From: Tropicimonas isoalkanivorans
GTDB taxonomy: Bacteria > Pseudomonadota > Alphaproteobacteria > Rhodobacterales > Rhodobacteraceae
Length of the DNA stretch: 64,000 nucleotides
Assembly (NCBI RefSeq): GCF_900112335.1
Contig: NZ_FOLG01000003.1
Span: 1 to 64,000, forward strand
Reading direction: 5' to 3'
Shown here: in pieces, positions 8,507-60,227 of the stretch
Layout of the letters: the number at the start of each line of letters is the position of its first letter
Position numbering within the stretch: the first letter of the stretch is position 1
Program-made: the position numbers and the translations under genes
The notes under the pieces: generated by a model
What the model was told of the DNA's origin: nothing
What the model saw: the letters and a program-made list of their open reading frames with translations, nothing else
Database searches by the model: none

Positions 8507-9516
8507 GCGTCATGCGGCATGGGCCGGGCCGGCCCCTCTCCTCCCCCCCAATCCTGGGCCGGCCCGCCCTCCAGAACAATCGGACAGCCCCGGTCCGTCA
8601 GGTAGGTTCTCACCTCCGCTTCGTGGCGTCCCCCCTCCTCCAGCATCCACTCGGTGAAAAGCCGCACGATCCGCCGGTTGGTGTGCCGCGGCGGGCAGAC
8701 CACGTGGTAGCCGGAGAACTCGATCACATCGAGCCGGTCGGAGAGTGGCACAAGCGCGCCGGTGGCAAGCTCCCGCCAGGCCAGAACGGCGCTCTCCAGC
8801 GTCACCCCTGCCCCGTCCGCGGCGAGCTGAATCGCCATGGAGGACCGGTCGAACCGGAGCGCGTAGACGGAGGGCACGGTCGCCCCGCCCCGCTGGTTCA
8901 ACCAGACGTCCCAGCGGTAGAAGGTCTTGACGCTGTCGATGAGCTGGGCGTGGCAAAGCTGCTCCATCGGGTCGTCGCTGAAGGCGCGCAGGGTCTCCAG
9001 GTAGGCCGGGGAGCACATCGGCAAGATGAAATCCTGCATCACGCACACCTCGTGCATGCCCGACCGCGGATCGCTGCCGTAGCGCAGATCGAGGTCGACA
9101 ATTTCCGTCTCGAAGTCGGTGAACTCCGGGGTCGCGTCCACCCGCACGCTCCAATCCGGGTTCTGGTCAAGGAAGGACTTGACCCGAGGCCCAAGCCAGC
9201 GGACGCCGAATGACGGGCTGACGCGCATGATGAACTGGCGCATCTGGCGCTGCCGCACGATTGCCGAATGCACCTCGGCCACCATGCGAAATGCCTGCGA
9301 CGTGGCGATGTAAAGCCGTTCGCCCTCCTCCGTCGGGATCAGGCGGCGGTTTTCGCGGCGGAAAAGGAGGACGCCGAACTGCTGCTCCAGCAAGCGGATC
9401 TGCTGACTGACGGCGGAGGTCGTGACGCGCAGCTCTTCCGCCGCCTTGGACACCCGGCCGCGCCGCGCGACGGCCTCGAAGTGCCGCAGCGCATTCATGT
9501 TCATATCCCTCAGCAT
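8500..9516 (-). CDS. LysR-family transcriptional regulator (GcvA-like)
   Basis: This 338-residue regulator has an N-terminal winged helix-turn-helix (ALRHFEAVARRGRVSKAAEE, then SAVSQQIRLLEQQFG) and a GcvA-type effector domain with RVSPSFGVRWLGPRV. The start at 9516 follows GAGGAGCGG; the frame extends to 9570 without support. It converges on the TRAP permease and has a 235-bp upstream region shared with the divergent ABC-transporter genes. It could control either the sugar locus or the ABC transporter. The C-terminal 35 residues are rich in Gly and Pro and poorly conserved in type. Confidence 0.88.
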   Translation of the reverse strand: MLRDMNMNALRHFEAVARRGRVSKAAEELRVTTSAVSQQIRLLEQQFGVLLFRRENRRLIPTEEGERLYIATSQAFRMVAEVHSAIVRQRQMRQFIMRVSPSFGVRWLGPRVKSFLDQNPDWSVRVDATPEFTDFETEIVDLDLRYGSDPRSGMHEVCVMQDFILPMCSPAYLETLRAFSDDPMEQLCHAQLIDSVKTFYRWDVWLNQRGGATVPSVYALRFDRSSMAIQLAADGAGVTLESAVLAWRELATGALVPLSDRLDVIEFSGYHVVCPPRHTNRRIVRLFTEWMLEEGGRHEAEVRTYLTDRGCPIVLEGGPAQDWGGGEGPARPMPHDAQ

Positions 9517-9751
9517 CGTCCGCTCCTCGGCTGGCCGCCGAGCGGCGGTCCTTTCCGCGCATCCTAGCAAGCCGCAGCACCGCGAGCCATGACAACTCGG
9601 CGCGTCCGCGGCGCAGATGTGCCGCGTTGACAGCGCGCGCCGGTTCAGGCCTCACTTGGCGACAGGACGCCGCGGCGGAAGAGAGCGGGCCCGGTCCATG
9701 GCCGCGACGCTTCCCCGGCGGAGCCCGGGATCGACGGCGGAGGATCATCCC

Positions 9752-10765
9752 ATGCCATCCTGTCACATAGCACCGTTTCGCAGGCGAGACGTTCTTCGCG
9801 GCGGCGCATTCGCAGCGGCGTCCTGCGCCCTGCCATGGGCATTCGGGCCTGCAATAGCGCGAGCGTCGGACCCGCTGACCATCTGGGGCATTCCCGCCAC
9901 CCCATCCGCCGTCTTTGCGCGCGCCGTCGCCTCCGGCGCACTGGACTCCGTTGCGCCGGGCACTCGGTTCGATATCTGGAAAAGCACCGATCAGATGCGC
10001 GCGGGGATCGCGTCGGGCGGCTTCAAGCTGTTTGGCACATCCACCTACGCGGCAGCCAATTTCTTCAACCGGGGCGCGGGCACGACGATGGTCAACGTCG
10101 TCACCTGGGGCGTGCTCTACGTCATGGCCCGCGCGGAGGACGTGACGCAGATCGAGGATCTGGCCGGCAAAACCGTCCTTCTGTCCAACAAGAACGAGGC
10201 GCCGGACCTGCTGTTCCGGCTGGTGCTGAAATGGTCCGGCCTCGACCCCGACCGGGATGTATCGCTCGACTATGTTGGCAGCCCGGGCGAGGCGGTGCCG
10301 CTCTTTCTCGCCGGGCGGGGGGACGTCGCGGTCCTGCACGAGCCAGCCGCCACCGCGGCTCTCCTCAAGGCCAAACAGACCGGCATTCCGATCCGGCGCG
10401 CCTTCGACGTGACCGAGGTTTACGGCCAGCAAACCGGCCGCGGCCCGCGCATCCCGCAGGTCGGGCTCGCCGTGAACCCTGAGTTCCTGGAGGCGAAACC
10501 GGAGGTCGTGGCGGCCGTCCATGCCGCGACCGTCGATGCGGGGGCGTGGGTGCTCGATCATCCCGAGGCGGCCGGGCAACTGGCCAGCGAAACGCTTCCC
10601 CTTCCCGCCACGGTGATCGCGAAGTCGATCCCGTACGTGCACCTCGACGTCCAGTCGGCGGCAGAGGCGCGGGAGGATATCGAGGTCTATTTCGAGAACC
10701 TGATGCGCCTCGATCCGGGCATCGTGGGCGGCAAGTTGCCCGATCCCGCGTTCTATTGGGGCTAG
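9752..10765 (+). CDS. ABC transporter substrate-binding protein (NitT/TauT-like), Tat-exported
   Basis: This 337-residue periplasmic protein has a twin-arginine signal (RRRDVLRG) and a hydrophobic stretch ending in ARA. The rest follows the NMT1/SsuA-type fold with DLAGKTVLLSN and RGDVAVLHEPAATAALL. The start at 9752 follows GGCGGAGGA. It heads a three-gene set with a permease and an ATPase. Family members carry taurine, alkanesulfonates, nitrate, thiamine precursors or metals. The ligand is not predictable here. Its place just before the [FeFe]-hydrogenase pair is unusual. Confidence 0.85.
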   Translation: MPSCHIAPFRRRDVLRGGAFAAASCALPWAFGPAIARASDPLTIWGIPATPSAVFARAVASGALDSVAPGTRFDIWKSTDQMRAGIASGGFKLFGTSTYAAANFFNRGAGTTMVNVVTWGVLYVMARAEDVTQIEDLAGKTVLLSNKNEAPDLLFRLVLKWSGLDPDRDVSLDYVGSPGEAVPLFLAGRGDVAVLHEPAATAALLKAKQTGIPIRRAFDVTEVYGQQTGRGPRIPQVGLAVNPEFLEAKPEVVAAVHAATVDAGAWVLDHPEAAGQLASETLPLPATVIAKSIPYVHLDVQSAAEAREDIEVYFENLMRLDPGIVGGKLPDPAFYWG

Positions 10766-10769
10766 CACC

Positions 10770-11549
10770 ATGGCGGCGGGCCGCAGCAAAGGGGCGCGCG
10801 CGATCTGGGGGTCGCTGGGGATCGTGCTGCTGCTCGCGCTTTGGGCCCTCGGCCACCGTCTCTACGGGCCGCTCGTGCTGCCCGGGCTGGACGAAACGGC
10901 TTCGGCCCTTCTGCGCATGATGCGAGACGGAACTGTCGGCCCGGCACTCGCCGCCACTGCCGGTCACGCCGGTCTGGGCTGGTTCGCAGGTGCCGCCGTG
11001 GGGATCTTCGCCGGCACGCTCGCCGGCCTGCGGGAGGAGGTACGGCTCACCCTTCAGCCCGTCGCGACGATCCTGCTCGGCATTCCGGCCATTGCCTGGG
11101 TCGTGCTGGCGCTGCTTTGGTTCGGCGGGAGTTGGGCCGTCGTCTTTACCGTGGCGGTCGCGACCGGCCCGCTGGTCTTCGCCGCCGCGACGCAGGGCGC
11201 ATGTAGCCTGGACGGCGACCTTGCGCGCATGGCCCGGGCGTTCCGTGCGCCTGCCTCCGCGATGGCGCTCGACGTCTACGGACCACACATGGCCAGCCAC
11301 CTCTTCCCCGCCCTCACCACCGCACTCGCCATGTCGTGGAAGGTGTCCGTGATGGCCGAACTGCTCTCGGGGGCCGGCGGGATCGGGGACGGGCTCGCCG
11401 CGGCACGGGCACGGGTCGATACCGCCGAGACGATGGCCTGGATCGTAGTCGTGGTTGCCGTCCTGATCACCGTGGATCACCTCCTTGTGCGGCGGCTCCA
11501 GCGCCGGATGGACCTCTGGCGCGAAGATCCGCGAAGCACCGCGTCATGA
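10770..11549 (+). CDS. ABC transporter permease (NitT/TauT-like)
   Basis: This 259-residue inner-membrane protein belongs to the BPD_transp_1 family, with about six predicted helices. The ATPase-contacting EAA-type loop is near MARAFRAPASAMALDVYGPH. It begins four bases after the binding-protein stop and overlaps the ATPase start (ATGA), so the three genes form one unit. Its transported substrate is unknown. Confidence 0.87.
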   Translation: MAAGRSKGARAIWGSLGIVLLLALWALGHRLYGPLVLPGLDETASALLRMMRDGTVGPALAATAGHAGLGWFAGAAVGIFAGTLAGLREEVRLTLQPVATILLGIPAIAWVVLALLWFGGSWAVVFTVAVATGPLVFAAATQGACSLDGDLARMARAFRAPASAMALDVYGPHMASHLFPALTTALAMSWKVSVMAELLSGAGGIGDGLAAARARVDTAETMAWIVVVVAVLITVDHLLVRRLQRRMDLWREDPRSTAS

Positions 11550-12280
11550 CCGCGCCTGCTCTCGCCTTCGAACGGGTCCATTTCTCTTACGGCGCGGACC
11601 CAATCCTTGACGGCATAGATCTCGAAGTATTGGCCGGGCACGTGACGGCGTTGATGGGCCCGTCCGGCTGCGGGAAAAGCACGCTTCTCGCCATCGGCGC
11701 CGGGCTGCTCGAACCGGCCTCGGGCCGCGTCTTGCGCACCGGCCGCCGGACGGCGATCGTCTTTCAGGACCCGCGCCTCCTTCCCTGGCGGACCGCATTG
11801 GCGAACGTCGCCTTCGCGCTGAAGGCGGACCGGCTGGCTTCGGCGGAGCGGCGGGACCGGGCGATGGCGGCGCTGGCCTCCGTCGGGCTGCGGGGGGATG
11901 ACGTTCGGAAATATCCCCGCCAACTTTCGGGGGGGATGCGCCAACGGGTTGCCCTCGCCCGCGCGCTCGTGATCGAGCCAGACCTGCTGCTCCTCGACGA
12001 GCCTTTTGGCGCCCTCGACCGCCCGCTCGCCCGCCAGATGCAGTCCCTCGCGCGGGACCACGTGGACCGCCGGCGCGCGGCCGCCCTGGTGGTGACCCAC
12101 GACCCACGGGAGGCCGCGGACATCGCGGAGCATGTCGCAGTCCTCTCACCGGCGCCCGCCCGGGTGACGTCGCAGCGCGCTCTTCCCGGCCATGTTGCAT
12201 CGCGGACGGAGGCTGAGCGTGCCGCCGCCGCCGGAGCGTTGACGGGGGACGCAGAACGGTCCCCCGGCGCGGATCCGTGA
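11546..12280 (+). CDS. ABC transporter ATP-binding protein (NitT/TauT-like)
   Basis: This 244-residue ATPase has Walker A (GPSGCGKST), Q-loop (VFQDPRLLPW), signature (LSGGMRQRVALARAL), Walker B with LLLLDEPFGALD, and the switch His in VVTHDPREA. The start at 11546 overlaps the permease stop. An upstream extension in the same frame to 11336 lies inside the permease and is not used. It energises the transporter upstream of the hydrogenase genes. Confidence 0.9.
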   Translation: MTAPALAFERVHFSYGADPILDGIDLEVLAGHVTALMGPSGCGKSTLLAIGAGLLEPASGRVLRTGRRTAIVFQDPRLLPWRTALANVAFALKADRLASAERRDRAMAALASVGLRGDDVRKYPRQLSGGMRQRVALARALVIEPDLLLLDEPFGALDRPLARQMQSLARDHVDRRRAAALVVTHDPREAADIAEHVAVLSPAPARVTSQRALPGHVASRTEAERAAAAGALTGDAERSPGADP

Positions 12281-12572
12281 CCCCGATGCGACACGCGGTC
12301 GGATCGACACACCGCAAAATTGGCGGAGACTGAAGGAGGAAGGCCAGATCCCCTGCGCCTTGTCTCGCAGTAATCGGGCGGGCGCGTCCAGCGTCCGACA
12401 GGACGATGACCGCAGACATGCCGATGCGTCCACCGCGACGGCCGCCGCCATGGCCGTGCGCTCGATCTGCGCACGATTTTCACCGCACCACGCTCCATCG
12501 CATCCCGTCGGCACCGCCGTACCGGGGCAATCCGGTTTCGGCTCGCCTCGCTTCCCGAGAGGAGGACCCCGC
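12281..12572 (+). other. Gap between ABC transporter and hydrogenase operon
   Basis: No convincing gene lies here. An open frame continuous with the hydrogenase flavoprotein runs back to 12360, but its residues are low-complexity Ala/Arg-rich and no ribosome site precedes that start. I see no sigma-54 element or NifA palindrome. GAGAGGAGG at 12557-12565 is the ribosome site for the next gene. Confidence 0.5.
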
Positions 12573-14570
12573 ATGACACACATCGTCTATGGCGTCTGGG
12601 ACGGCGTGGTGCACGATTCCCGGCAATCGGCCGATGCGGCGCAGGCCACCCTGCCGGAACTCACAGATTTCGACGAGTTTGACGCCGGCAACCCGATCCG
12701 GGCGTTCTTCGGGGACCGGGGGTTTCTGGTGTTCGACGAGACGGTCAGCCTGGTCGATGCGCTGTTTCACTACATGGAGAAAGCCGCCGAGCAATCCTGC
12801 GGCGCGTGCACCCCGTGCCGGATGGGCACCGTGCTGGTGCGCGATGCGCTGGATAAGATGCGCCGCGGCCTGGAGTCCCCGCTGGGCTTCGACGACATCG
12901 AGATGCTGGGCGAGCAGATGCGGCAGACTTCGCTCTGCGGGCTGGGGCAGACCTGCGCCGTGGCCCTGCTCGATGCGTTGAGGAACTTTCGAAACAAGAT
13001 GGAGGCGGAAACCGCGGATCACATGCCGATCCGGGCGCAGATCGGCATGGCCTACATGACCGCGCCCTGCATCGAGGCCTGCCCCAGCAAGGTGAACGTG
13101 CCGCGCTACATCGACTACATCCGCGACGGAAAGCCCGAGAACTCGCTGGGCGTGCTGCTTCAGAAGTACCCGATGGCGGCCACCTGCGGCCGGGTCTGTG
13201 TGCGCTACTGCGAGCAGGCCTGTCGGCGCAAGTTCGTGGACGAGGCTGTGGGGATCAAGACGCTGAAGCGCTACGTCGCCGACCAGCAGAAGGGGCCGAA
13301 CGCGCTCAAGTTCACCCGCGACATGATCCGCAAGCCACTCGATCCGGCGATGCGGGTGGCGGTGATTGGCGCGGGACCGGCTGGCATCTCCTGTGCCTAT
13401 CACTTGCTGCTGCACGGCTACCACGTGGATGTTTTCGAGAAATCCAACGAAGCCGGTGGCATGGCACAGATCGGCATCCCGTCCTACCGGCTGCCGAAGG
13501 ATACGCTGGCGCTGGAGACGGACATCATCGTCGATCTCGGCGGGCGGTTCCTGTTCGGCCAGCAGCTCGGCCGGGACGTGACGATCGACGGGCTGTTCGC
13601 GCAGGGCTACAAGGCCGTCTTCCTCGGACTCGGCTGCCAGGCGGGCACCAGCCTGGGCGTGGCCGGCGAGGCGGAGGCGCGCGGCGGCTACTACAGCGGG
13701 ATCGACTTCCTTCTGAGTGTCCACGACCACGTGGACGGGATCGCGCCGCTCGCGCTCGCAGGCGAGGTGGTTGTCGTCGGCGGCGGCAACGTGGCGATGG
13801 ACTGCGTGCGTTCGGCGGTGCGGCTCGGGGCGGAGAAGGTCCACGTGGTCTATCGCAGGACGCTGGAGGACATGCCGGCCGATCACGAGGAGGTGGTTGC
13901 CGCGAACGAGGAAGACATCGCTTTCCACACCCTCACGAACCCGACACGCATCCTGACCCAGGCGGGCCGCATCACCGGCGTGGAGCTGGTACGCATGGAG
14001 CAGACCGAGCCCGACGAAAGCGGCAGGCGCAAGGTGCGACCGGTGCCGGGCAGCGATTTCACCCTGCCCTGCGACACCTTCATCTCCGCAATCGGCCAGC
14101 AGGTGGAGGACGGCGCGCTGGTGGAGGACGACGGCGTCACGCTGGACAAGTGGCGCTGCGTGGCGACGGACCAAACGCTCGCCACCTCGCGGCCGGGCGT
14201 CTTTGCGGGTGGGGACTGCGTCACCGGCCCTTCGACCCTGATCTACGCCATGGCAGCCGGGCTGAAGGCGGCGCGTAGCATCGATGACTGGATCCAGCGC
14301 GGCACGGTGCGGTTCTTCAAGCGCTCGAGGATGCGCAAGCTGATCGCGGACAACCGGATCCTGGCCAACGACGTGGTCGAGATGCCGGTGCGCAACGCCT
14401 ACCGCGTCCACAACCCGGAGCTGGACCCGGAGCTGCGCAAGAAGATGTTTGGCGAGGTGGAGCAGACCATCAGCGAACAGGATGCCTATGCCGAGGCGCA
14501 ACGCTGCATGCGCTGTTACCGGATCTACTCCGTCGTGACCAAACACCCGATCCCGGAAGGAGCCGCCTGA
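12573..14570 (+). CDS. NuoF-like/GltD-like iron-sulfur flavoprotein, [FeFe]-hydrogenase partner
   Basis: This 665-residue electron-transfer subunit combines two known modules. Residues about 55-140 match the C-terminal 4Fe-4S domain of NuoF/HydB, with SCGACTPCR giving Cys76, Cys79, Cys82 and a fourth at Cys122. From about 155 it matches the glutamate-synthase small subunit (GltD/NfnB type). That part has an N-terminal cysteine-rich cluster domain (Cys166, 170, 205, 209, 213, 217), the FAD Rossmann motif IGAGPAG and a second dinucleotide motif VVGGGNVAMD. The NuoF FMN/NADH domain itself is missing. It starts after GAGAGGAGG and ends one base before the hydrogenase gene. The likely role is NAD(P)H-linked electron exchange with HydA, possibly bifurcating; that part is inference. 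Confidence 0.85.
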   Translation: MTHIVYGVWDGVVHDSRQSADAAQATLPELTDFDEFDAGNPIRAFFGDRGFLVFDETVSLVDALFHYMEKAAEQSCGACTPCRMGTVLVRDALDKMRRGLESPLGFDDIEMLGEQMRQTSLCGLGQTCAVALLDALRNFRNKMEAETADHMPIRAQIGMAYMTAPCIEACPSKVNVPRYIDYIRDGKPENSLGVLLQKYPMAATCGRVCVRYCEQACRRKFVDEAVGIKTLKRYVADQQKGPNALKFTRDMIRKPLDPAMRVAVIGAGPAGISCAYHLLLHGYHVDVFEKSNEAGGMAQIGIPSYRLPKDTLALETDIIVDLGGRFLFGQQLGRDVTIDGLFAQGYKAVFLGLGCQAGTSLGVAGEAEARGGYYSGIDFLLSVHDHVDGIAPLALAGEVVVVGGGNVAMDCVRSAVRLGAEKVHVVYRRTLEDMPADHEEVVAANEEDIAFHTLTNPTRILTQAGRITGVELVRMEQTEPDESGRRKVRPVPGSDFTLPCDTFISAIGQQVEDGALVEDDGVTLDKWRCVATDQTLATSRPGVFAGGDCVTGPSTLIYAMAAGLKAARSIDDWIQRGTVRFFKRSRMRKLIADNRILANDVVEMPVRNAYRVHNPELDPELRKKMFGEVEQTISEQDAYAEAQRCMRCYRIYSVVTKHPIPEGAA

Positions 14571-14571
14571 C

Positions 14572-16428
14572 ATGTGCACCGATCATTCGGACGTCCAGAC
14601 GCGAGATCCGGCGGAGGCCACCATCTCGCTCACCATCAACAGCCACGCCTGCGCGGCCTTTCCCAACGAGACGATCCTGAGCTGCGCCCGGCGCCACGGC
14701 CTTTACATCCCCACCCTGTGCGAGTTGGAGGACATCGACCACGCGCCGGGCACCTGCCGAGTCTGCGTGGTGGAGATCGTCCAGTCGGGCCGCGCGGCGG
14801 CGCAGATCGTCACCGCCTGCAACACGCCGGTGCGCGAGGGGATGCAGGTGGCCACCCGCACCAAACGCGTGCGAAACATGCAGAAGCTGCAGGTGGAGCT
14901 GCTGATGGCCGACCACCTGCAGGACTGCGCCACCTGCGTGCGCCACGGCGACTGCGAGTTGCAGGATCTGGCGCAGTTTGTAGGGCTGACCGAAAACCGG
15001 TTTTTTGACCGGGCCCGCACGCTCGCCCGCGAGGTCGACGACAGCTCCCCGGCGCTGATCCGCGACATGCAGCGCTGCGTGCGATGTCAGCGCTGCGTCG
15101 CCGTCTGCCGTTATCATCAGAAGGTGGACGCGCTGGTCATGTCGGGCACCGGCGTCAATCGCTACGTCGACCTACGCGACGGCTACGACCAGAAGAACTC
15201 CACCTGCGTCACCTGCGGCCAGTGCGTGCTGGTCTGCCCCACCGGCGCCCTGGGGGAGCGCGACGAGACGGAGCGCGCGCTCGACTATATCTGCGATCCG
15301 GACCTGACGACGGTGGTCCAATTCGCCCCCGCCGTGCGCGTGGCCTTCGGCGAGGAGTTTGGGATGCCCGCCGGCACCAACGTGGAAGGCCAGATCATCG
15401 CGGCCTGCCGCAAGATCGGCGTCGATGTGGTGCTCGACACCAATTTCGCCGCCGATGTGGTCATCATGGAGGAAGGGACCGAATTGCTGGGCCGCCTCAA
15501 GCGTGGCCAGCGGCCGACTTTCACCTCCTGCTGCCCGGCCTGGATCAACTTCGCTGAGATCCACTACCCGGACATCCTGCCGCTGCTGTCCTCCACCAAG
15601 TCGCCCCAGCAGGTGCTCTCAACCATGGCCAAGACTTACCTGCCCGAGAAGATGGGCATCGCGCCCGAGAAGGTGCGGGTGATCTCGATCATGCCCTGCA
15701 CCGCCAAGAAGGACGAAGCGGTGCGCCCGCAACTGGTTCACGACGGCCTGCCCGAAACCGACGTGGTGCTGACCACGCGCGAGTTCGCCCGCCTGCTGCG
15801 CCGCGAGGGGATTGACCTGAAGGATCTGGAGCCCTCCACCTTCGACAATCCGCTTATGAGCGAATATTCCGGCGCAGGGGCCATCTTCGGCACCACGGGC
15901 GGGGTGATGGAGGCGGCGGTCCGCACGATCTATGCCGTGGTCAACGGCCACGAGTTGGAGCAGATAGACCTGACCCAGTTGCGCGGCTTCGAAGGCGCGC
16001 GCTCCGCCACGGTGGACCTCGGCGGCCAGATCGGGGAGGTGAAGGTCGCCATGGTCCACGGCCTCGGCGACACCCGCGCCATTGTCGAGGCGGTGCGCGC
16101 GGGCGAGGCCGACTTCGACTTCATCGAAGTCATGGCCTGCCCCGGCGGCTGCGTCGACGGCGGCGGCTCGCTGCGGTCGAAGCGGGCGTACCTGCCGCTG
16201 GCGATGGCGCGGCGCAAGACGATCTACGACGTCGACCGTACCGCCCGCGTTCGCCAGTCCCACAACAACGAGCAGGTGAAGACGCTCTACCGCGACTTTC
16301 TGGAGGCGCCGAATTCCCGAAAGGCCCACGACCTGCTGCACACCCACTACACCGACCGGCGCCGCGAGATGGAGCACACGGTGAAGGAGATCTGGGACGA
16401 CATCACGATGTCCACGATGGTCTACTGA
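14572..16428 (+). CDS. hydA: [FeFe]-hydrogenase catalytic subunit (group A, M3-like)
   Basis: This 618-residue enzyme interconverts protons and H2. From the N-terminus it has a plant-type 2Fe-2S domain (Cys50, 62, 65, 83) and the His-Cys 4Fe-4S segment (His115, Cys119, 122, 128). Two ferredoxin clusters follow (Cys169/172/175/179 and 212/215/218/222). The H-cluster domain has the three signatures: L1 TSCCPAW (Cys320 for proton transfer, Cys321), L2 MPCTAKKDE (Cys375) and L3 EVMACPGGCVDGGG (Cys523, Cys527). A small-subunit tail ends the chain. All ligands are present, so it should be active if HydE, HydF and HydG exist elsewhere; none is in this window. It has no signal peptide and is therefore cytoplasmic. 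Such enzymes are uncommon in alphaproteobacteria. Confidence 0.96.
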   Translation: MCTDHSDVQTRDPAEATISLTINSHACAAFPNETILSCARRHGLYIPTLCELEDIDHAPGTCRVCVVEIVQSGRAAAQIVTACNTPVREGMQVATRTKRVRNMQKLQVELLMADHLQDCATCVRHGDCELQDLAQFVGLTENRFFDRARTLAREVDDSSPALIRDMQRCVRCQRCVAVCRYHQKVDALVMSGTGVNRYVDLRDGYDQKNSTCVTCGQCVLVCPTGALGERDETERALDYICDPDLTTVVQFAPAVRVAFGEEFGMPAGTNVEGQIIAACRKIGVDVVLDTNFAADVVIMEEGTELLGRLKRGQRPTFTSCCPAWINFAEIHYPDILPLLSSTKSPQQVLSTMAKTYLPEKMGIAPEKVRVISIMPCTAKKDEAVRPQLVHDGLPETDVVLTTREFARLLRREGIDLKDLEPSTFDNPLMSEYSGAGAIFGTTGGVMEAAVRTIYAVVNGHELEQIDLTQLRGFEGARSATVDLGGQIGEVKVAMVHGLGDTRAIVEAVRAGEADFDFIEVMACPGGCVDGGGSLRSKRAYLPLAMARRKTIYDVDRTARVRQSHNNEQVKTLYRDFLEAPNSRKAHDLLHTHYTDRRREMEHTVKEIWDDITMSTMVY

Positions 16429-16552
16429 ACCGACCGCGCGGGAAGCAGGCCAAACACCGTAGCTGCACGATCACTTTGTCGCCGCCAAACGGCCGCCGAG
16501 CCTTGCGGACCTGAGAGGTTTTGGGCATTTGGCCGTGGACAAGGGGAAGCGG

Positions 16553-17050
16553 ATGACTGTCCTGAACGGAATTGCGGCGCACGTGCATCGCGTGACGCAG
16601 CGAATTTGCCAATTGCTGCTGGGACTGATCTTCATCGGTCAGCTTGTCGTGGTGATCCTGCGCTACGTCTTCGGCATGGGGTTCATCGAGTTGCAGGATG
16701 CCGTGGCCTACAGCTTTGCCACGCTGGTGGTGCTCGGCCTGCCCGTCGCGCAGGCCCTAGACGTCCACGTTCGTGTGGATGTGCTCCGCGCCAACCAGAC
16801 CCGGCAAACCCAAGCGCTGTTCGACCGCGTGGGCATCATCGCGCTCCTGATCCCGGTCTTCGGGCTGACGATCTATTGGGTCTGGCCCGACATCGTCTAT
16901 AGCTGGTCGATCCGGGAAGCCTCCGCCGAGACCGGCGGCCTACCCGGCCTGTTCCTGGTGAAGTCCATGCTGCCGCTCGCCTGTGCCCTGATGATCCTGC
17001 AGGGCGTGGCGCAGCTCTTTTCCCTTGGGAAGGAGCCGGCGCGTGATTGA
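16553..17050 (+). CDS. TRAP transporter small permease (DctQ family), second system
   Basis: This 165-residue membrane protein has four predicted helices and the DctQ pattern VVVILRYVFGMGFIELQD. The ATG at 16553 follows AAGGGGAAG; a frame back to TTG 16529 has weaker support. It lies 124 bp after the hydrogenase gene on the same strand and overlaps the large permease. Confidence 0.87.
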   Translation: MTVLNGIAAHVHRVTQRICQLLLGLIFIGQLVVVILRYVFGMGFIELQDAVAYSFATLVVLGLPVAQALDVHVRVDVLRANQTRQTQALFDRVGIIALLIPVFGLTIYWVWPDIVYSWSIREASAETGGLPGLFLVKSMLPLACALMILQGVAQLFSLGKEPARD

Positions 17051-18659
17051 GCATTTCTGGCTGATCGTCCTCGGCCTCAGCCTGCTGGCCGGCATCCTGT
17101 CGGGCGTGCCCGTGATGCTGGTGTTGGCCGGCGTGCCGGTGCTGGTGGCCTTCGTGGCGGCCGGGTTCGGGGCGTTCGACCTGAGCTTCCTGCAAGCATA
17201 TCCGCAGCGCGCCTTCGGGGTGATGTCGAATTCTCTGCTCGTCGCGGTGCCGCTCTTCGTGCTGATGGGTGTGATGCTGGAGCGATCGCGTGTCGCGGAG
17301 CGGATGCTGATGCAGGTGGGCCGCGTGCTGGGGGGCACGCCGCGGGCTCTGGCGCTGGCGGTATTGCTCGTCTCCACGCTCATCGCCGCCTCCACTGGCA
17401 TCATCGGCGCCACGATCGTCATGCTGGGAATGATCAGCCTACCGGCAATGCGGCGCGTGGGGGTGCCCGACGAGACAGCCAGCGGCCTGATCTGTGCCGC
17501 CGGCACGCTGGGCCAGATCATCCCGCCCTCCATCGTGCTGATCCTGCTGGGCGACCAGGTGGCCAATGCCTATCTGGAGGCGCAGCAGCAGGCCGGGAAC
17601 TTCGCCCCTGATGCTGTCACCGTGGGCGATTTGTTCGCGGGATCTTTGCTGCCGGGGCTGGTGCTGGTTGCGCTTTACGGCGTCTTCATCTTCTTCAGGC
17701 TCTCGAACATTCCCGCGCACACCGAAGCCGACACGGCGCCGTCCAACTGGTGGGACGTGGCGCGCGAAGTCCTGCCGCCGATCTTGCTGATCCTGGCCGT
17801 TCTGGGCTCCATCCTGACCGGCGTTGCAACGCCGACCGAGGCCGCCGCTATCGGGGTCGCGGGCACGCTGCTAATCACCGCGGCCCGCGTTTCGGCCGCG
17901 GGCGACGAAGATGCACTGCCCGGCGGCACGCACGCCCACGCGCCGGAACAGCGGCGCACGGCCGGTTGGCTGCGGCATGTGATGACGGCGACAGGGGCAG
18001 TCGGCTTCGCGCTGGTGGCCCTGCGACTGACCGGCGTCGGCCGGGTGGACCTGTCTGCGGCTCAGGTCGGCCTGAGCCTTGGATCGATGCTGGCGATCGC
18101 ACTGACCGGTCTTCTGGTCGCCGGTCTCGTCGTCGCCGTGGTTGTGCTGACCCGCGCCGGCATCTTCGGGGCCGCGATCGGGCGTGCGGTACAGACATCG
18201 GCCATGATCTTCGGCATCGTTCTCGCCGCTTCGATGCTCAGCCTCGTCTTTCGCGGCTTCGGCGGGGACGACTGGGTGCGCGAGGTGCTCACCGGCCTGC
18301 CCGGCGATCACCGGACGATGCTCGTCTTCACGCTGCTGGTGATTTTCCTGATGGGCTTCATCCTGGAGTTCGTGGAAATCGTCTTCATCGTCGTGCCGCT
18401 GGTCGGCCCGATCCTGCTGCAGGACGTGGACCCGGTCTGGTTTGCCGTGCTGGTGGCGTTGAATCTGCAGACCTCGTTCCTGACACCGCCGTTCGGCTTC
18501 GCGCTCTTCTATTACCGCTCGGCAGCGCCAGCCGATATCCGTACCGGCACCATCTATCGCGCCATCATTCCCTTCGTGCTGATCCAGATCGTCACACTGG
18601 GGATCGTTTTCCTCTGGCCGCCGCTTGCGACCTGGCTGCCAAGCGTGTTGTTTGGCTGA
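17043..18659 (+). CDS. TRAP transporter large permease (DctM family) with central insertion
   Basis: This 538-residue permease keeps the DctM signature segments (VSTLIAASTGIIGATIVMLG, IIPPSIVLILLGD, LNLQTSFLTPPFGFALFYY). It is about 100 residues longer than usual. The extra part, roughly residues 285-390, holds a hydrophilic His/Ala-rich loop and two or three added hydrophobic segments. The start is read as GTG 17043, overlapping the small permease; ATG 17025 in the same frame is the alternative. Enlarged DctM proteins occur with TakP-type binding proteins, which fits the next gene. Confidence 0.87.
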   Translation: MIEHFWLIVLGLSLLAGILSGVPVMLVLAGVPVLVAFVAAGFGAFDLSFLQAYPQRAFGVMSNSLLVAVPLFVLMGVMLERSRVAERMLMQVGRVLGGTPRALALAVLLVSTLIAASTGIIGATIVMLGMISLPAMRRVGVPDETASGLICAAGTLGQIIPPSIVLILLGDQVANAYLEAQQQAGNFAPDAVTVGDLFAGSLLPGLVLVALYGVFIFFRLSNIPAHTEADTAPSNWWDVAREVLPPILLILAVLGSILTGVATPTEAAAIGVAGTLLITAARVSAAGDEDALPGGTHAHAPEQRRTAGWLRHVMTATGAVGFALVALRLTGVGRVDLSAAQVGLSLGSMLAIALTGLLVAGLVVAVVVLTRAGIFGAAIGRAVQTSAMIFGIVLAASMLSLVFRGFGGDDWVREVLTGLPGDHRTMLVFTLLVIFLMGFILEFVEIVFIVVPLVGPILLQDVDPVWFAVLVALNLQTSFLTPPFGFALFYYRSAAPADIRTGTIYRAIIPFVLIQIVTLGIVFLWPPLATWLPSVLFG

Positions 18660-18707
18660 GACAAGTATCGGGGCACGACGCGCCCCGCAACAACTGGGAG
18701 AGAGATC

Positions 18708-19772
18708 ATGAAACGTCGTGCATTCCTGAAGTCCGGAATGGTCGCCGCCCCCGCCGCGGCACTTGCCGCGCCCGCCATCGCGCAGGGGATCATCGAATGG
18801 AAATGCCCCACGTCTTTCCCGGCGAAAGCGCCGGGCGTGGGCACCAACGCGGTCACCTTCGTGGATCGCGTGAACGCCATGGCCGACGGGCGGCTGCGGC
18901 TGAAACTCTATTCCGGCGGCGAGCTGGTGCCGCCGTTCGCCGTGGAGGACGCCGTTCAGCAAGGCACGGCGGAGATCGGGCATGGCACGGCCTATTACAG
19001 CGCGGGCAAGAACTCCGCACTGCACTTCTTCACCAACATTCCCTTCGGCTTCACCGCCTCCGAACTGTCCGGCTGGCTGCGCTACGGAGGCGGACAGGAG
19101 ATCTATGACGACCTCTATGCCCAGCGGAACATGATCCCGCTCTACTCCGGCAACTCCACCGTGCAGGCGGCGGGCTGGTTCAAGAACGAAATCACCAGCG
19201 TCGCCGACCTGTCTGGGCTGAACATGCGCATCGCCGGCCTTGGCGGCGAAGCGATGCGGAAGCTCGGCGTGAACGCGGTGCTCATGCCGCCGACCGAGAT
19301 CTTCCCGGCCTTCCAGTCCGGCGCGATCGACGCGGCGGAATGGGTCGGGCCGATGCTGGACCAGGCCTTCGGGCTCAACAAGGTGGCCACCTACTGCTAC
19401 GCGCCTGCCTTCCACGAGCCGGGCGCCGGCCTGCATGTGGTGGTCAACAAGGACGCCTGGGAGAGCCTGACGCCCGACCTCCAGGCGATCTTGCGTAGCG
19501 CCGCCGGTGCCGCGGAATCCGAGACCATCAGCCAGTTCGAGTATTTCAACGCTCAGGCCTTCAAGGCGCTGCAAGATGCGGGCGTCGAGTTCAAGGCCTT
19601 CCCCGAAGACGTTCTCGCGGCGCTGAAGCAGGCCTCGACGGAAGTGATGGACGAGCAGGCCGCGGCCAACCCGGACTTCCAGCGCTGCCTCGAGAGCGCC
19701 AATGCCTACCTCGAAGTCGCCCGCCCCTACGGCGCCGCCTTCACGGCTCAAACGATGTTGCAGCGCGTCTGA
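18708..19772 (+). CDS. TRAP transporter solute-binding protein (TakP-like)
   Basis: This 354-residue binding protein has a twin-arginine-like start (MKRRAFLKSG) and an Ala-rich signal ending in AIAQG. TakP-type features include GGELVPPFAVEDAVQQG, NMRIAGLGGEAMRKLG and the ligand segment AAEWVGPMLD. TakP relatives bind 2-oxo acids, such as pyruvate, through a cation. It follows the permeases after 48 bp with a GGGAGAGA ribosome site. Uptake of an organic acid beside a hydrogenase would suit fermentative or phototrophic growth, but no direct link is shown. Confidence 0.88.
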   Translation: MKRRAFLKSGMVAAPAAALAAPAIAQGIIEWKCPTSFPAKAPGVGTNAVTFVDRVNAMADGRLRLKLYSGGELVPPFAVEDAVQQGTAEIGHGTAYYSAGKNSALHFFTNIPFGFTASELSGWLRYGGGQEIYDDLYAQRNMIPLYSGNSTVQAAGWFKNEITSVADLSGLNMRIAGLGGEAMRKLGVNAVLMPPTEIFPAFQSGAIDAAEWVGPMLDQAFGLNKVATYCYAPAFHEPGAGLHVVVNKDAWESLTPDLQAILRSAAGAAESETISQFEYFNAQAFKALQDAGVEFKAFPEDVLAALKQASTEVMDEQAAANPDFQRCLESANAYLEVARPYGAAFTAQTMLQRV

Positions 19773-20194
19773 TCGCGCGCGAGGCTCGCCGCTCCGGCGG
19801 CGGGCCTCCTGCCCTGCGCCGGCACCTACGGCCGCCTGATCCGCCGAACCCTATTGGCAGACGGCCACACGCGCGGACCAAATCCATAGCCCCCCTTGTC
19901 AGCGTCAGGCCGAATCGACCCGGCCCACGGCGGACGGTCCTGCCGACCCCTCCTGCATAGCTTTAGCGCAAACAGACGCCTTTTCGGGCAGCACGCGTAT
20001 CGTCGCGAGCCACCATATGCACGGATTGCGCGCAGACGGGGCAAATCATGGGGCGAGATCGCGCAGCTTGCCCTGAGGGCAATCTCCCTGACTGGACATT
20101 CCGCCCGTCGCTTGGCGAACATGCAGGCAGGGAGGAAGCACAACTTTTAGCTTGGTTGGGCCCATCAGATATTTCCTAGGAAGGACGTATCTCC
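19773..20194 (+). other. Long gene-free leader upstream of nifA
   Basis: These 422 bases hold no convincing gene. I looked for a sigma-54 -24/-12 element, a TGT-N10-ACA NifA palindrome and an Fnr-type TTGAT-N4-ATCAA box, and saw none. A ribosome site (AGGAAGGA) lies at the right end, just before nifA. Control of nifA, for example by NtrC or RegA, would have to act here but leaves no recognisable site to the eye. Confidence 0.5.
19781..19808 (+). terminator. Possible terminator hairpin after TRAP genes
   Basis: GAGGC at 19781-19785 pairs with GCCTC at 19804-19808, and CGCCG at 19787-19791 pairs with CGGCG at 19795-19799 around a three-base loop. There is no T-run, so this may be a stability hairpin rather than an intrinsic terminator. 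Confidence 0.4.
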
Positions 20195-21946
20195 ATGCAC
20201 ATCGACGTTGTAGAGCCAGTTCGTCTGATTTCCTCCTCAGCCCGTCGGCGGGCGAAAGCGGCCGCGCGGGAGTCCGAACAGACATCGCTCGAAACTGTAT
20301 TTGAAATTGCAAAGCTGCTGACCGGCGCCGTCGACCCCGTGGCGGCCATGCCGAGCGTCTTCAGCATCCTCGGCTCCTTCATGGGGCTGCGGCACGGGGC
20401 GCTGTCGCTGCTGTGCGACCCCGAGGCCGGGCAGAGCCCGCACCCCGGACACAACCCGTTCGCCCTGGCGGCGACGGTGCGCGGCGTCGCGCCGGATCTG
20501 CCAAGCGCGCGGGGCAATGACCGGGTGACGGAAATGGTGTTTCTCACCGGCGTGCCGCTGGTTTCGCTCGACATCGAGAACGAGTTCGGCGTCGACGCGC
20601 TTCCGGACCAGACGACTGACGGAAGGCTGGCGCTGATCGCCGTGCCGATCCGGGCAGAAACGCATCTGCCGCTTGTGATCGGCGTGCTGAAAGTGTTCCG
20701 CCCCTTCACCGATGATCCGGCCCGCGAGGTCTCAAACGACCTGCGCGTGATGACGATGATCGCCTCGCTGCTCGAGCAGGCGCTACGCTTCCGCCGCGCG
20801 GTCGCGCGGGACAGGGAACGGATGTTCCGCGAAGCCGGAGAGGCGATCAAGGCGGCGCATGATGCGCGCGAGGATGTCGAGCCGCTCCTGCCCGACCAGG
20901 GCATCGTGGGCGAAAGCGCCGCGATCGGCGCCGTCGCGAAGCGGATCCGAAAGGTGGCAAAGACCAGCACACAGGTTCTGTTGCGTGGCGAGAGCGGGAC
21001 CGGCAAAGAGCTGTTCGCCCGGGCCATCCACAGCCTGAGCGACCGCGCCGACAAGCCCTTCATCAAGGTCAACTGCGCGGCGCTGAGCGAGTCCCTACTG
21101 GAAACCGAGTTGTTCGGTCACGAGAAGGGGTCGTTCACCGGCGCAACCGGGCTGAAAAAAGGCCGGTTCGAGCTTGCGAACGGCGGAACGCTTTTTCTCG
21201 ACGAGATCGGCGAGATCAAGCACGAGTTTCAGACCAAGCTGCTCCGCGTGCTTCAGGAGGGCGAATTCGAGCGTGTCGGTGGGACCAAGACGCTGAAGGT
21301 CGACGTCCGTCTGATCACGGCGACGAACCGGGATCTGGAGGAGGCCGTCGCCCGTGGCAAGTTTCGTGCGGACCTCTATTTCCGGATTTGCGTGGTGCCG
21401 ATCCACCTTCCGCCCCTGCGCGACCGTCCGGAGGACATCCCGCAACTGGCGCGGACCTTCCTCGACCGCTTCAATGAGGAAAACGGCACCGCCCTGGAAT
21501 TCGAGCAGGATGCCCTCGGCACGCTTCTGGGGTGCCGCTTCCCCGGCAACGTCCGGGAGCTGGAAAACTGCATCCATCGCAGCGCGGCACTGTGCGACAG
21601 CGACGTGATCCGGGCCGAGGATCTGGCCTGCAATCAGGATGCCTGCCTCTCCGCGCAACTCTGGCGACTGCAGAACAACGCCTTTTCGCCGATCGGCGGG
21701 CTGGCTGCGGGTGAGGTGATCCAACCGATCGTACGGAGTATCTCCGCCCCGGTTCGGCCGATCCCAGAGCGCCCTGCCCCGCCGCCCGTTCCCCGCAAGA
21801 CCGCCAACACAGAGCGCGAGGAGCTGATCGATGCGATGGAGCAGGCCGGTTGGGTTCAGGCGAAGGCCGCGCGCCTGTTGGGCATGACCCCGCGCCAGAT
21901 CGGCTACGCGCTCCGAAAGCACGACATCGAGATAAAGAAAATCTGA
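20195..21946 (+). CDS. nifA: Nitrogenase transcriptional activator NifA
   Basis: This 583-residue sigma-54 activator controls the nif regulon. It has an N-terminal GAF domain (about 30-195) and an AAA+ domain (about 235-460). The AAA+ domain has Walker A GESGTGKE at 265-272 and Walker [11 protein letters not shown] at 331-340. A C-terminal Fis-type helix-turn-helix includes [16 protein letters not shown]. The interdomain linker has Cys447, Cys459, Cys479 and Cys484, exactly the C-x11-C-x19-C-x4-C pattern that makes alphaproteobacterial NifA directly oxygen-sensitive. The sigma-54 contact loop reads GSFTGA (312-317) instead of the usual GAFTGA. The gene stands alone, upstream of nifB, and ends at a strong hairpin. 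Confidence 0.97.
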
Positions 21947-24960: not shown

Positions 24961-25169
24961 AAATCATGGTCCGCGACACGCCCAAGGGAACGGAAATCTA
25001 CGTGCCCAAGAAGGATCTGGAGGAGATCGTCGTCGAGTCCGAGAAGCCCGGCATCTGGGGCGGCTGGGCGAAGCTCTCGAACGGCTGGATGCTGGAGATG
25101 CCGGAATTCGCCGAGCCGCCGAAGCTGCCGATCACTGTCGACGCCCGCCGACTGGCGGATGCGGAGTGA
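24957..25169 (+). CDS. nifT: NifT/FixU family protein
   Basis: This 70-residue protein matches NifT: MKIMVRDTPKG, YVPKKDLEE and GGWAKLSNGWMLEMP. NifT is found in most proteobacterial nif clusters, but its absence gives little effect and its role is unknown. It overlaps nifZ by four bases and ends beside the SIR2-like gene. Confidence 0.93.
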   Translation: MKIMVRDTPKGTEIYVPKKDLEEIVVESEKPGIWGGWAKLSNGWMLEMPEFAEPPKLPITVDARRLADAE

Positions 25170-25174
25170 ATGGG

Positions 25175-26002
25175 ATGAGCGACCAAGCCAAACTGAGCGA
25201 AGCGCTGGACGCGGTGGCCGCGGGAAGGATGATCCCCTACCTCGGCCCCGGCGTCTCCGGCCTCAGCCCCGATGTGCCCGCCTCGCCCGATGCGCTGTGC
25301 GCACATTTGGAAGCCGAGGTGCGGGTGCCCAAACGCGCCTCCGGCAACCTCTGGTCGGCCGCGCAATACGTGGAGAGCCGCAAGTTCCGCGCGACGCTGA
25401 ACGACATCATCGAGCGGGCCTTCGCCCCCGGGCTCGGCCAGCCGAACGCGGTTCAGAGGGCGATCGCCACCATGCGCCCGGCGATGATCGTGGACACCTG
25501 GTACGACGACGGCCTTCTGGCGGCGATGCAGTGCCAGGCGGACTGGGGCTGGGTTCAAGGCGTTAGCCGCAACGGCGAGTGGATCGAGATCTGGACCCGC
25601 GCCTACGACACCACCGGCGCCGAGCGCCCCGAGGGGCCGGACACGGGCTGGGACACGCTGGTCTACAAACCGCACGGGATGGCGCGCAAAGGCTCCAGCT
25701 TCCTGATGTCCGACAGCGACTATGTCGAGGTGCTGACCGAGATCGACATCCAGACACCGATCCCCGAGGAGGTCCGCGCCCGCCGGACGGGGCGTGGGTT
25801 CCTGTTCCTCGGCTGCCGGTTCGACGACCAGATGCTACGCACCTTCGCCCGGCAGATCACCAAACGGTCCGGCGGCGGGCACGTGGCTGTCATCGATGGC
25901 GCGCTGACGCGGATGGAGGGGAAGTTCCTCGATGAGATGGGGATTACCCGGCTGGATCTGCCGCCGGAGGAGGTCACGGCAGCTCTTTCGGCCCCGGTCT
26001 GA
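25175..26002 (+). CDS. Nif-linked SIR2-like protein
   Basis: This 275-residue protein resembles the SIR2_2 branch of the sirtuin/NAD-binding fold. The N-terminal PYLGPGVSG stands where sirtuins have GAGxS; VYKPHGM and FLFLGCRFDDQMLRTFAR are the later landmarks. SIR2-like genes next to nifT or nifZ are known in proteobacterial nif clusters, but no function is established. NADase, deacetylase or a structural role are all possible. It begins five bases after nifT; GTG 25166, overlapping the nifT stop, is the alternative start. No membrane segment or partner toxin gene is visible, which argues against a phage-defence use here. Confidence 0.8.
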   Translation: MSDQAKLSEALDAVAAGRMIPYLGPGVSGLSPDVPASPDALCAHLEAEVRVPKRASGNLWSAAQYVESRKFRATLNDIIERAFAPGLGQPNAVQRAIATMRPAMIVDTWYDDGLLAAMQCQADWGWVQGVSRNGEWIEIWTRAYDTTGAERPEGPDTGWDTLVYKPHGMARKGSSFLMSDSDYVEVLTEIDIQTPIPEEVRARRTGRGFLFLGCRFDDQMLRTFARQITKRSGGGHVAVIDGALTRMEGKFLDEMGITRLDLPPEEVTAALSAPV

Positions 26003-59051: not shown

Positions 59052-59237
59052 ATGACCGTGGAAGTTTGGGGAACGTCGCCCGCGCTGCCGGCAACAGGGG
59101 GCGGAAGCTGGACGGCGGTGGAACGCGGGCCGATCGCATGGGGGTTCGGACCACCCCAACCAGATGGAAATTATAAAATTATTTCTGATTCTTGCGTCGC
59201 ATCCGCCACCAATCCCGCGGTGAGGCCGGTTCAATGA
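59052..59237 (+). CDS. Short unknown protein (61 residues), coupled to next gene
   Basis: This small Gly/Pro/Trp-containing peptide has ATG at 59052 after a clear CAGGAGG. Its stop overlaps the start of the next gene (ATGA). I recognise no family, signal peptide or membrane segment. A longer version from 59031 has no ribosome site. Coupling and the good ribosome site support translation. Confidence 0.55.
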   Translation: MTVEVWGTSPALPATGGGSWTAVERGPIAWGFGPPQPDGNYKIISDSCVASATNPAVRPVQ

Positions 59238-60172
59238 CGTATTCACGAAGCGTCGTACACTGTTTCATGAGCTTCCCGCTCCGCGAACCGGACCGTTCGA
59301 AACTTTCTGCAATTCCGTTTCATCCTGCGACCCTATTCGCCAACGGTGAAGATGGGGCATTCTTCGATGCCGTTGTCGCGTCTTCAATCTACCCGGATGA
59401 ATGCTTCAATTTTCCTTCCCAATACGGCGACACCGTTGGCGGGTTGATCGACCAGAGCCAATCGATGAAGCTTGGACCGGATGAGTTTCACGGGTTCGAC
59501 GTGTTCGATACCGGCGCCTGGACGGACAACGGCGACGGCTCTTACACCAGCATCGCCAACAGCTACCAGAACCTGAAGATTTACGGCCAGAATTTTGCCG
59601 ACAACCAACGTATTGGCGATCTCTTTCAGTGCCAGGTCAACGTGGATGAGTATGTTTCGGGAGCTGGGTATGAGTGGGTAGACTGCTTCTACACGATTTC
59701 GGACAATTTCGTCTCGGAGCTGGGGCTCAACACCAGACTCCGAATGATAAAGGATGCCGGTGGGTATCTTTGGTTCCGAGAGCGTATCACCGCAGGTACT
59801 GTCTCCGGATTCTCGCTCAAGAAGGTGTTGGGCAACCATAGCCATCAGACCGATGCAGCGTTGCGACCGACCTATCAGACGATGCTCGGCGACATCGACG
59901 CAGGCCCGCATGTCCAATTCGACGGGGTCGATGATGTGCTGCCGGTGACCCTGCGCGGGACATCCAGCGATGGCACGGCTTACACCACGGAGACGGCCTA
60001 TACCGTCGCGCTACACCACCCCCTTGATGGATGGAGCTTCACTGAAGGGCTGACCTTGGCTCAGGCTCAGGTGATTTCGTCCGATTTCTCGCAAGCTCTC
60101 ATCATCAACCGGCCGCTGACGGACGGTGAAAAGACCGCGCTGGAGGTGCGGTATCCTACCCCTTTTTCCTAA
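59234..60172 (+). CDS. Unknown 312-residue protein, possible tail or surface structural protein
   Basis: I do not recognise a family with certainty. It is rich in Asp, Gly, Ser, Thr and aromatic residues. It contains NGDGSYTSIANSYQNLKIYG (like a lectin or jelly-roll strand), HVQFDGVDDVLPVTLRG and ends LEVRYPTPFS. Such sequences occur in phage-tail and secreted adhesin regions of Rhodobacterales. No signal peptide is visible. It overlaps the preceding short gene and is 55 bp upstream of the beta-helix genes. Confidence 0.6.
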   Translation: MTYSRSVVHCFMSFPLREPDRSKLSAIPFHPATLFANGEDGAFFDAVVASSIYPDECFNFPSQYGDTVGGLIDQSQSMKLGPDEFHGFDVFDTGAWTDNGDGSYTSIANSYQNLKIYGQNFADNQRIGDLFQCQVNVDEYVSGAGYEWVDCFYTISDNFVSELGLNTRLRMIKDAGGYLWFRERITAGTVSGFSLKKVLGNHSHQTDAALRPTYQTMLGDIDAGPHVQFDGVDDVLPVTLRGTSSDGTAYTTETAYTVALHHPLDGWSFTEGLTLAQAQVISSDFSQALIINRPLTDGEKTALEVRYPTPFS

Positions 60173-60227
60173 GCAGAGGCCGTTGGGATGACAACGGTTT
60201 CTGGTTCGATGAACAGAACTGGATCGA

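Follow-up and report, generated by a model that had tools for sequence, protein, structure and literature searches.

How, or indeed whether, [FeFe]-hydrogenases work in cells without the maturases HydE, HydF, and HydG is an old open question, known from Rhodospirillum and from some protists (PMC4967309; PMC numbers here refer to excerpts of the papers). The same question is raised by a stretch of 64,000 nucleotides from Tropicimonas isoalkanivorans (contig NZ_FOLG01000003.1, positions 1 to 64,000; hereafter, the window), which encodes a HydA hydrogenase and a flavoprotein partner, with an ATP-binding cassette (ABC) importer upstream of them. A conserved importer ties the question to a concrete gene and a simple test. 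It is quite possible, if short of probable, that the five genes at 9752-16428 form one module, an NADPH-linked [FeFe]-hydrogenase with its own importer of the diiron subcluster or a precursor. An earlier, sequence-only reading of this DNA overlooked both the adjacent importer (9752-12280) and the genome-wide absence of HydE, HydF, and HydG. The features concerned are the following.

9752-10765, + strand: substrate-binding protein (SBP) of the NMT1/SsuA type with a twin-arginine signal (Pfam, alignment, AlphaFold2 model, Foldseek)
10770-11549, + strand: permease, BPD_transp_1 (Pfam)
11546-12280, + strand: ATPase, ABC_tran (Pfam)
12281-12572, + strand: gap of 292 bases separating the ATPase and fusion genes (pattern search, Rfam)
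12573-14570, + strand: fusion flavoprotein of 665 residues, from the ATG at 12573 to the TGA at 14568-14570 (Pfam, cysteines, motifs)
12762-13007, + strand: NuoF-type 4Fe-4S domain (NADH_4Fe-4S) of the fusion, residues 64-145 (Pfam)
13047-13292, + strand: Fer4_20 domain of the fusion, residues 159-240 (Pfam)
13350-14261, + strand: FAD/NAD(P)H module (Pyr_redox_2) of the fusion, residues 260-563 (Pfam)
C-terminal end of the fusion, + strand: CxxC formed by C645 and C648 (cysteine alignment)
14572-16428, + strand: HydA, group-A [FeFe]-hydrogenase of 618 residues with an ATG start (Pfam, TIGR02512, alignment)
about 15310-16164, + strand: H-domain of HydA; the N-terminal Fe-S domains are NuoG-like

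A single base (14571) separates the stop codon of the fusion gene from the ATG of HydA. The sequence-only reading had described a fusion of the NuoF 4Fe-4S domain with a GltD-like part, devoid of the FMN domain and followed one base later by a complete group-A HydA, and the coordinates and Pfam bear this out: the NuoF FMN/NADH (51K) domain was not found in the fusion. HydA scores 298 bits with Fe_hyd_lg_C and also matches Fe_hyd_SSU; it reaches 519 bits on the TIGR02512 "group A" model (cut-off 406) and stays below the NCBIfam model NF040763 of group A6 NADH-dependent hydrogenases (724 bits, cut-off 765). HydA has the four cysteines of the H-cluster (C321, C376, C523, C527) as well as C320 of the proton path, and its closest solved relatives are the HydA1 chains of 8a6t and 7q4v. 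Eight cysteines of the fusion, in the Fer4_20 part and at the C-terminus, are kept in 36 of 36 aligned proteins, that of the window included, which is far beyond chance. The FAD motif is kept across the same 36 fusions together with a GGGNVAMD...YRR motif, the NADPH type known from GltD and NfnL. These motifs and cysteines suggest a path along which electrons would pass from NADPH to FAD, two 4Fe-4S clusters, the NuoF-type 4Fe-4S cluster, the N-terminal clusters of HydA and, finally, the H-cluster, with a flow that would be reversible and would proceed without bifurcation. Thus, electron entry at the GltD-like flavin, as the sequence-only reading proposed, is probable. Its further proposal of possible bifurcation is not supported, as the fusion carries only one GltD-like flavin module and no NuoF FMN domain, and the genes flanking the pair, the only ones checked for a NuoE/HydC type, encode an ABC ATPase and DctQ; none of the cofactors expected in the pair demands bifurcation. 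The AlphaFold2 model of the fusion (mean predicted local distance difference test score, pLDDT, 66.6) was too poor for a test of the electron path and was not used.

The pair is rare in alphaproteobacteria, as had been supposed, since Fe_hyd_lg_C was found in only one of 295 genomes of the family sample, that of the window itself; within this sample the HydA gene is sporadic. The window genome (4.98 Mb, rated 100% complete with contamination of 0.07) has one Fe_hyd_lg_C gene. A scan of genome contigs yielded 42 loci (L002-L043), four of which (L039-L041 and L043) fall outside the group. The remaining 38 are from Alphaproteobacteria, two of them titled Proteobacteria only, and all contain HydA and the fusion gene; in L021, L028, and L035, the fusion gene is truncated where the contig stops.

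HydE, HydF, and HydG have all been reported as essential for HydA maturation (PMC6212873). A group-A [FeFe]-hydrogenase is thus expected beside all three in its genome, and the window genome lacks this set: HydG and HydE have no match in it at E 1e-3, and HydF has none over the cut-off (at most 72 bits, against 325; the HydF search also gives matches in all 14 control genomes). Genomes of 38 relatives were searched, 36 alphaproteobacterial and two Clostridia metagenome-assembled genomes (MAGs), with those of L006 and L037 left out. All three maturases exceed the cut-off in the same 20 genomes, and the other 18 have none; the latter are the two Clostridia MAGs and 16 of the 36 alphaproteobacterial relatives with HydA. 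The maturase-bearing genomes are of the Pleomorphomonas, Oryzibacter, Ancalomicrobiaceae, and Rhizomicrobium types; the maturase-less alphaproteobacteria are Rhodovulum, Tropicimonas, Aliiruegeria, Cohaesibacter, Rhodobium, Rhodopseudomonas, and one MAG. Hidden maturases were also considered, and the weak HydG and HydE matches in three Cohaesibacter genomes turned out to be CofH.

What accompanies HydA in these lineages is the importer. In each of the 19 loci from the maturase-less clade, the SBP and permease genes adjoin the pair, lying downstream in 13, divergently upstream in five, and upstream on the same strand in one, the window. The two genes are also next to each other in all 19, and the ATPase gene adjoins in 18. 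A crude neighbourhood comparison found no real gene family besides the importer in four or more clade loci, although one frame antisense to the ATPase does recur. The HydA-type SBP (over 530 bits) is present in all 17 maturase-less alphaproteobacterial genomes, and ten of the searched genomes have more distant SBP copies (199-332 bits). In the class sample, with at most five candidates scored per genome, the SBP is found at E<=1e-30 in 4 of 385 genomes, with 597 bits in the window genome and at most 272 elsewhere.

The importer is of the NitT/TauT type, with an NMT1-type SBP, a BPD permease, and an ABC ATPase; no NCBIfam equivalog exceeds its cut-off for the SBP or the permease, and none does for the ATPase among the best 25 of 181 matches. 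Alignment A1, which used a possible earlier start of the window SBP (the ATG at 9698), shows the twin arginine without variation in all 28 SBPs. The SBP tree contains two HydA-linked types as separate clades (100/98 and 96/89), and six outside relatives are set apart from them (100/100). The nearly fixed differences between the two types are denser in the predicted binding loops (11 of 36 positions, against 16 of 262; Fisher p 6e-5), an enrichment that is only suggestive because the loops were picked once the alignment had been seen. Foldseek neighbours of the AlphaFold2 model of the SBP (pLDDT 87.9) are 3hn0, PqqT, SsuA, Thi5, and TauA. The similarity to PqqT (Foldseek TM 0.67/0.78) is one of fold only: an SBP profile run against the PDB (E<=1) listed 16 chains, and PqqT was not among them. 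The nearest PDB chain by sequence is 3hn0 (E 6e-9).

HydA itself is well conserved in the maturase-less clade. Twenty-seven tabulated positions (24 of the first alignment table plus E278, E279, and E282, in CpI numbering) are identical in 19 of 19 sequences, L006 and L037 included. Besides the H-cluster cysteines, these positions are residues that line the diiron site and the proton path. CpI S232 is alanine in all 39 HydA sequences of the two groups, and six of the 20 maturase-bearing sequences have methionine at Q325. Three nearly fixed differences distinguish the clade from these 20 sequences. Across eight pairs, HydA has an omega of 0.04-0.18 and the fusion one of 0.04-0.16; the corresponding ranges are 0.04-0.24 (SBP), 0.05-0.22 (permease), and 0.15-0.58 (ATPase). 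HydA of this clade is under purifying selection. In the HydA tree the clade lies on one side of a single branch that is present in 100% of 200 bootstrap trees. Its hosts belong to Roseobacteraceae, Paracoccaceae, Nitrobacteraceae, Cohaesibacteraceae, and Rhodobiaceae, and Rhodopseudomonas groups with a Rhodovulum (92/91); this distribution points to horizontal spread.

Relatives of the importer are found beyond this clade. Two records from other phyla place such a relative near hydrogenase-related genes. In Collinsella aerofaciens, the gene order is fusion, HydA, SBP, and a fused permease/ATPase; in Vescimonas fastidiosa, the genes for SBP, permease, and ATPase stand in this order behind one for a TM1266 "iron-only hydrogenase regulator" (116 bits, cut-off 60.8; L129, 7628-10215). 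In Monoglobus, a TM1266 gene is followed by hydG (L134, 5977-7707). Two HydF queries, which covered only the plasmid-collection records of Collinsella, Vescimonas, and Subdoligranulum, gave no match there. In the two Clostridia MAGs that have HydA but lack HydEFG, an importer trio is found on another contig; in rumen Clostridia MAGs with this gene content (L039, L040, L132, L133), the trio stands behind a gene that by eye resembles a Crp/Fnr-type regulator. The nearest SBP relatives in the plasmid collection, of about 37-43% identity, are from Agrobacterium, Shinella, Chelatococcus, and Martelella. All five regions read are SBP-permease-ATPase-NnrS operons, two of which include a TonB receptor; nap genes lie close to one and nnrU close to two. 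Operons with a TonB receptor, an NMT1-type SBP, permease, ATPase, and NnrS occupy L106 6876-12777, L108 5867-11725, and L124 2250-8396, and related NnrS-linked sets are in L107, L109, L110, L122, and L123; possibly, these operons are uptake systems for a metal or a metal complex. In Cohaesibacter celericrescens (L123, 2664-11571), the HydA-linked importer adjoins an NnrS-linked relative of itself. A wider SBP tree contains three groups, from other phyla, NnrS-linked, and alphaproteobacterial HydA-linked, with a branching order that is not settled.

Importers near HydEFG in maturase-bearing genomes (16 stretches in at least seven genomes) were not used as evidence. Among such genomes, the importer near HydF in L112 adjoins a tRNA synthetase gene, and L114, L120, and L125 have a lone ATPase gene 1-2.5 kb off. 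An uncultured Pleomorphomonas (L111, 50-4181) has an ordinary NMT1-type ABC importer divergent beside hydG.

The ligand that we infer for the importer is the diiron unit or a late precursor, and the reading of the five genes as one module would work as follows. General Fe-S machinery would insert the [4Fe-4S] half of the H-cluster. Neighbouring organisms that make the H-cluster would release the diiron Fe-CO-CN complex, either complete or as a late precursor, which the Tat-type SBP would capture and the ABC transporter would carry into the cell. Apo-HydA would then accept it, as happens with the synthetic complex in cells grown in the laboratory. This would make the organism an "H-cluster auxotroph", in parallel to bacteria that rely on outside B12 or PQQ. 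Two kinds of precedent are in print: synthetic [2Fe]adt fed to living Escherichia coli or Synechocystis gives active HydA without HydEFG (PMC6984386, PMC8960641), and PqqT captures PQQ (PMC12124388). A broader version, in which the importer family salvages the carbonyl-cyanide diiron cofactor, or a compound late on the way to it, from the environment and the hydrogenase module spreads between bacteria without maturases, is possible, and we hold it tentatively; with the same reserve, such salvage may span Alphaproteobacteria, an actinomycete record (beside HydA), and a bacillot (behind TM1266). If true, it would mean that members of anoxic communities share cofactors and that hydrogenase activity moves between bacteria as a kit of five genes. 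It would also be, to our knowledge, the first case of an organism taking up an organometallic cofactor of a hydrogenase.

Several observations weigh against the import of a diiron unit. The HydA-type SBP also occurs in 11 of the 20 maturase-bearing genomes, all of the Pleomorphomonas clade, and the importer is therefore no simple substitute for HydEFG; the difference between 17 of 17 and 11 of 20 has a Fisher p of 0.0015, not corrected for relatedness. The alphaproteobacterial counts are not independent, because the maturase split is in effect one evolutionary event, and the branch that sets the maturase-less clade apart in the HydA tree is supported by 85/51 only. Among these genomes, a completeness rating comes with that of the window only. 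L011 has no ATPase beside its SBP and permease, and omega of the ATPase rises to 0.57-0.58 in two of the eight pairs, so that this gene is either less constrained or has misjudged starts. Outside the clade, no hydrogenase is annotated in the stretches around the nearest NnrS-linked relatives, HydA was not found on the Vescimonas replicon at E 1e-60, and an Acetoanaerobium record holds HydF together with an importer relative.

If HydA works, some source of the [2Fe] subcluster must exist, because the protein retains its full active site. The source could be internal: the cells may build the subcluster by a route without HydE, HydF, and HydG, for which the importer may supply a simple building block, such as cyanide, thiocyanate, or an iron compound, or something else. 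The complete active site agrees with this explanation, as do other radical S-adenosylmethionine enzymes (NifB, CofH) in some of these genomes and the importer's presence alongside HydEFG too. However, searches of the window genome at E 1e-3 matched nothing like HydE or HydG, and only the importer recurs beside the pair, as judged from the crude neighbourhood comparison (the rest of the genomes were not compared gene by gene). HypD is absent from 5 of the 17 maturase-less alphaproteobacterial genomes, that of the window among them, and NifB is also absent from 5 of 17, with Cohaesibacter celericrescens (G298) lacking both. Hence neither Hyp nor Nif chemistry is common to all 17 or can serve them all, and Hyp-derived Fe(CN)2CO was ruled out as their common source. 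We regard an internal route that bypasses HydE, HydF, and HydG as somewhat unlikely.

Another scenario separates the importer from cofactor supply. The transporter would take up a substrate or a metal for anaerobic metabolism, the hydrogenase would act as an electron valve, and the loss of maturases would be a separate event. PDB relatives of the SBP bind nitrate-like, sulfonate, and vitamin ligands; the nearest relatives outside the module pair with NnrS, one of them beside nap genes; and maturase-bearing Pleomorphomonas carry the importer as well, all of which fits uptake for such a purpose. This purpose is harder to reconcile with the adjacency to HydA retained through three gene arrangements, the separate clade formed by the HydA-linked SBPs (100/100), and the linkage of the importer to HydA or TM1266 in other phyla, and we consider this scenario unlikely. 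Finally, HydA may have lost the [2Fe] subcluster, becoming an NAD(P)H-linked Fe-S oxidoreductase with [4Fe-4S] clusters only, or an inactive protein. The absence of HydEFG, for which earlier authors proposed inactivity in maturase-less alphaproteobacteria, agrees with such a loss. However, the residues that contact the diiron site are invariant in 19 of 19 sequences, HydA is under purifying selection, and the gene has spread horizontally over five host families, which makes the loss distinctly unlikely.

The window's hydrogenase pair can be compared with several known systems. Nfn/Stn-type transhydrogenases (PDB 9bov, 8oh5, 9n5u, 5jca) share the Fer4_20 and FAD/NAD(P)H module with the GltD-like part; theirs works with NuoF/HydB-type subunits, whereas that of the window is fused to the NuoF cluster domain and paired with HydA. 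The bifurcating HydABC/BfuABC enzymes (group A3) resemble the pair in HydA, closest to the 8a6t and 7q4v chains, and in the NuoF-type 4Fe-4S domain. They have a HydB with the FMN/NADH domain and a HydC; in the window, the fusion is without 51K, no flanking gene is of the HydC type, and electron entry would be at the GltD-like FAD module. In the "glutamate synthase-linked" hydrogenases of group A2, whose role HydDB lists as undetermined (PMC5037454), a group-A HydA also stands beside a GltD-type flavoprotein. A HydA with a GltD-type partner is thus common to both, but in group A2 the GltD/GltA-type gene, without a NuoF domain, is directly downstream, whereas in the window the downstream gene is DctQ, the GltD-type protein is encoded upstream and contains a NuoF cluster domain, an ABC importer is present, and HydEFG are absent.

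Alphaproteobacterial HydA without maturases is already in print, and the importer is the new lead. As in the window genome, one or more maturases are absent beside HydA in Rhodospirillum rubrum, Entamoeba, and Monocercomonoides, and the excerpts of these reports mention no importer (PMC4967309, PMC3226654). The R. rubrum-type HydA without maturases was judged probably inactive or different in role, and Pleomorphomonas was listed as having maturases (PMC4967309); ProPhylo notes a few species with HydA and without maturases (PMC3226654). Excerpts of PMC11406978, PMC10711303, PMC6288185, and PMC9304861 contain nothing bearing on the importer. We found no paper linking an ABC importer to these hydrogenases in the open-licence literature, where no search joined the importer with HydA, and this is weak evidence of absence. 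Among NMT1-type SBPs, PqqT, SsuA, TauA, and Thi5/HMP share the fold of the window SBP; the ligand of PqqT is a redox cofactor, but the window SBP has no sequence match to PqqT. The NnrS operons, the nearest plasmid relatives, are without hydrogenase in the stretches read, and the HydA-linked SBPs are separate from theirs (100/100).

The gap between the ATPase and fusion genes contains no FNR-like or sigma-54 site recognizable by simple patterns, and Rfam matched nothing within 9000-20500. With one mismatch allowed and without a shuffled control, FNR-like patterns precede the fusion gene in 23 of 39 loci (three of which offer little or no upstream sequence); the window has none. The loci with such patterns are L007, L009, L012, L016, L017-L020, L022-L027, L029, L030, L032, L036, L042, and others.

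The window also contains a large Mo-nitrogenase region at 20195-58187, in which a sigma-54 activator, NifB, NifT, and an Oxidored_nitro protein were tested by search and further nif-, mod-, and rnf-like genes were assigned by eye. The sequence-only reading had connected the hydrogenase with this region, suggesting that it disposes of or recycles nitrogenase H2. As a general role, this was rejected: besides the missing NifB genes noted above, a nif cluster is found in only one of the 42 loci (L024), inspected with flanks up to 9 kb. Two open frames of 326 and 771 residues at 59192-62543, where the nif/rnf region has its far edge, have no Pfam match. Within the nif region, directly behind nifT, a gene at 25166-26002 encodes a protein with a SIR2-like domain (PF13289).

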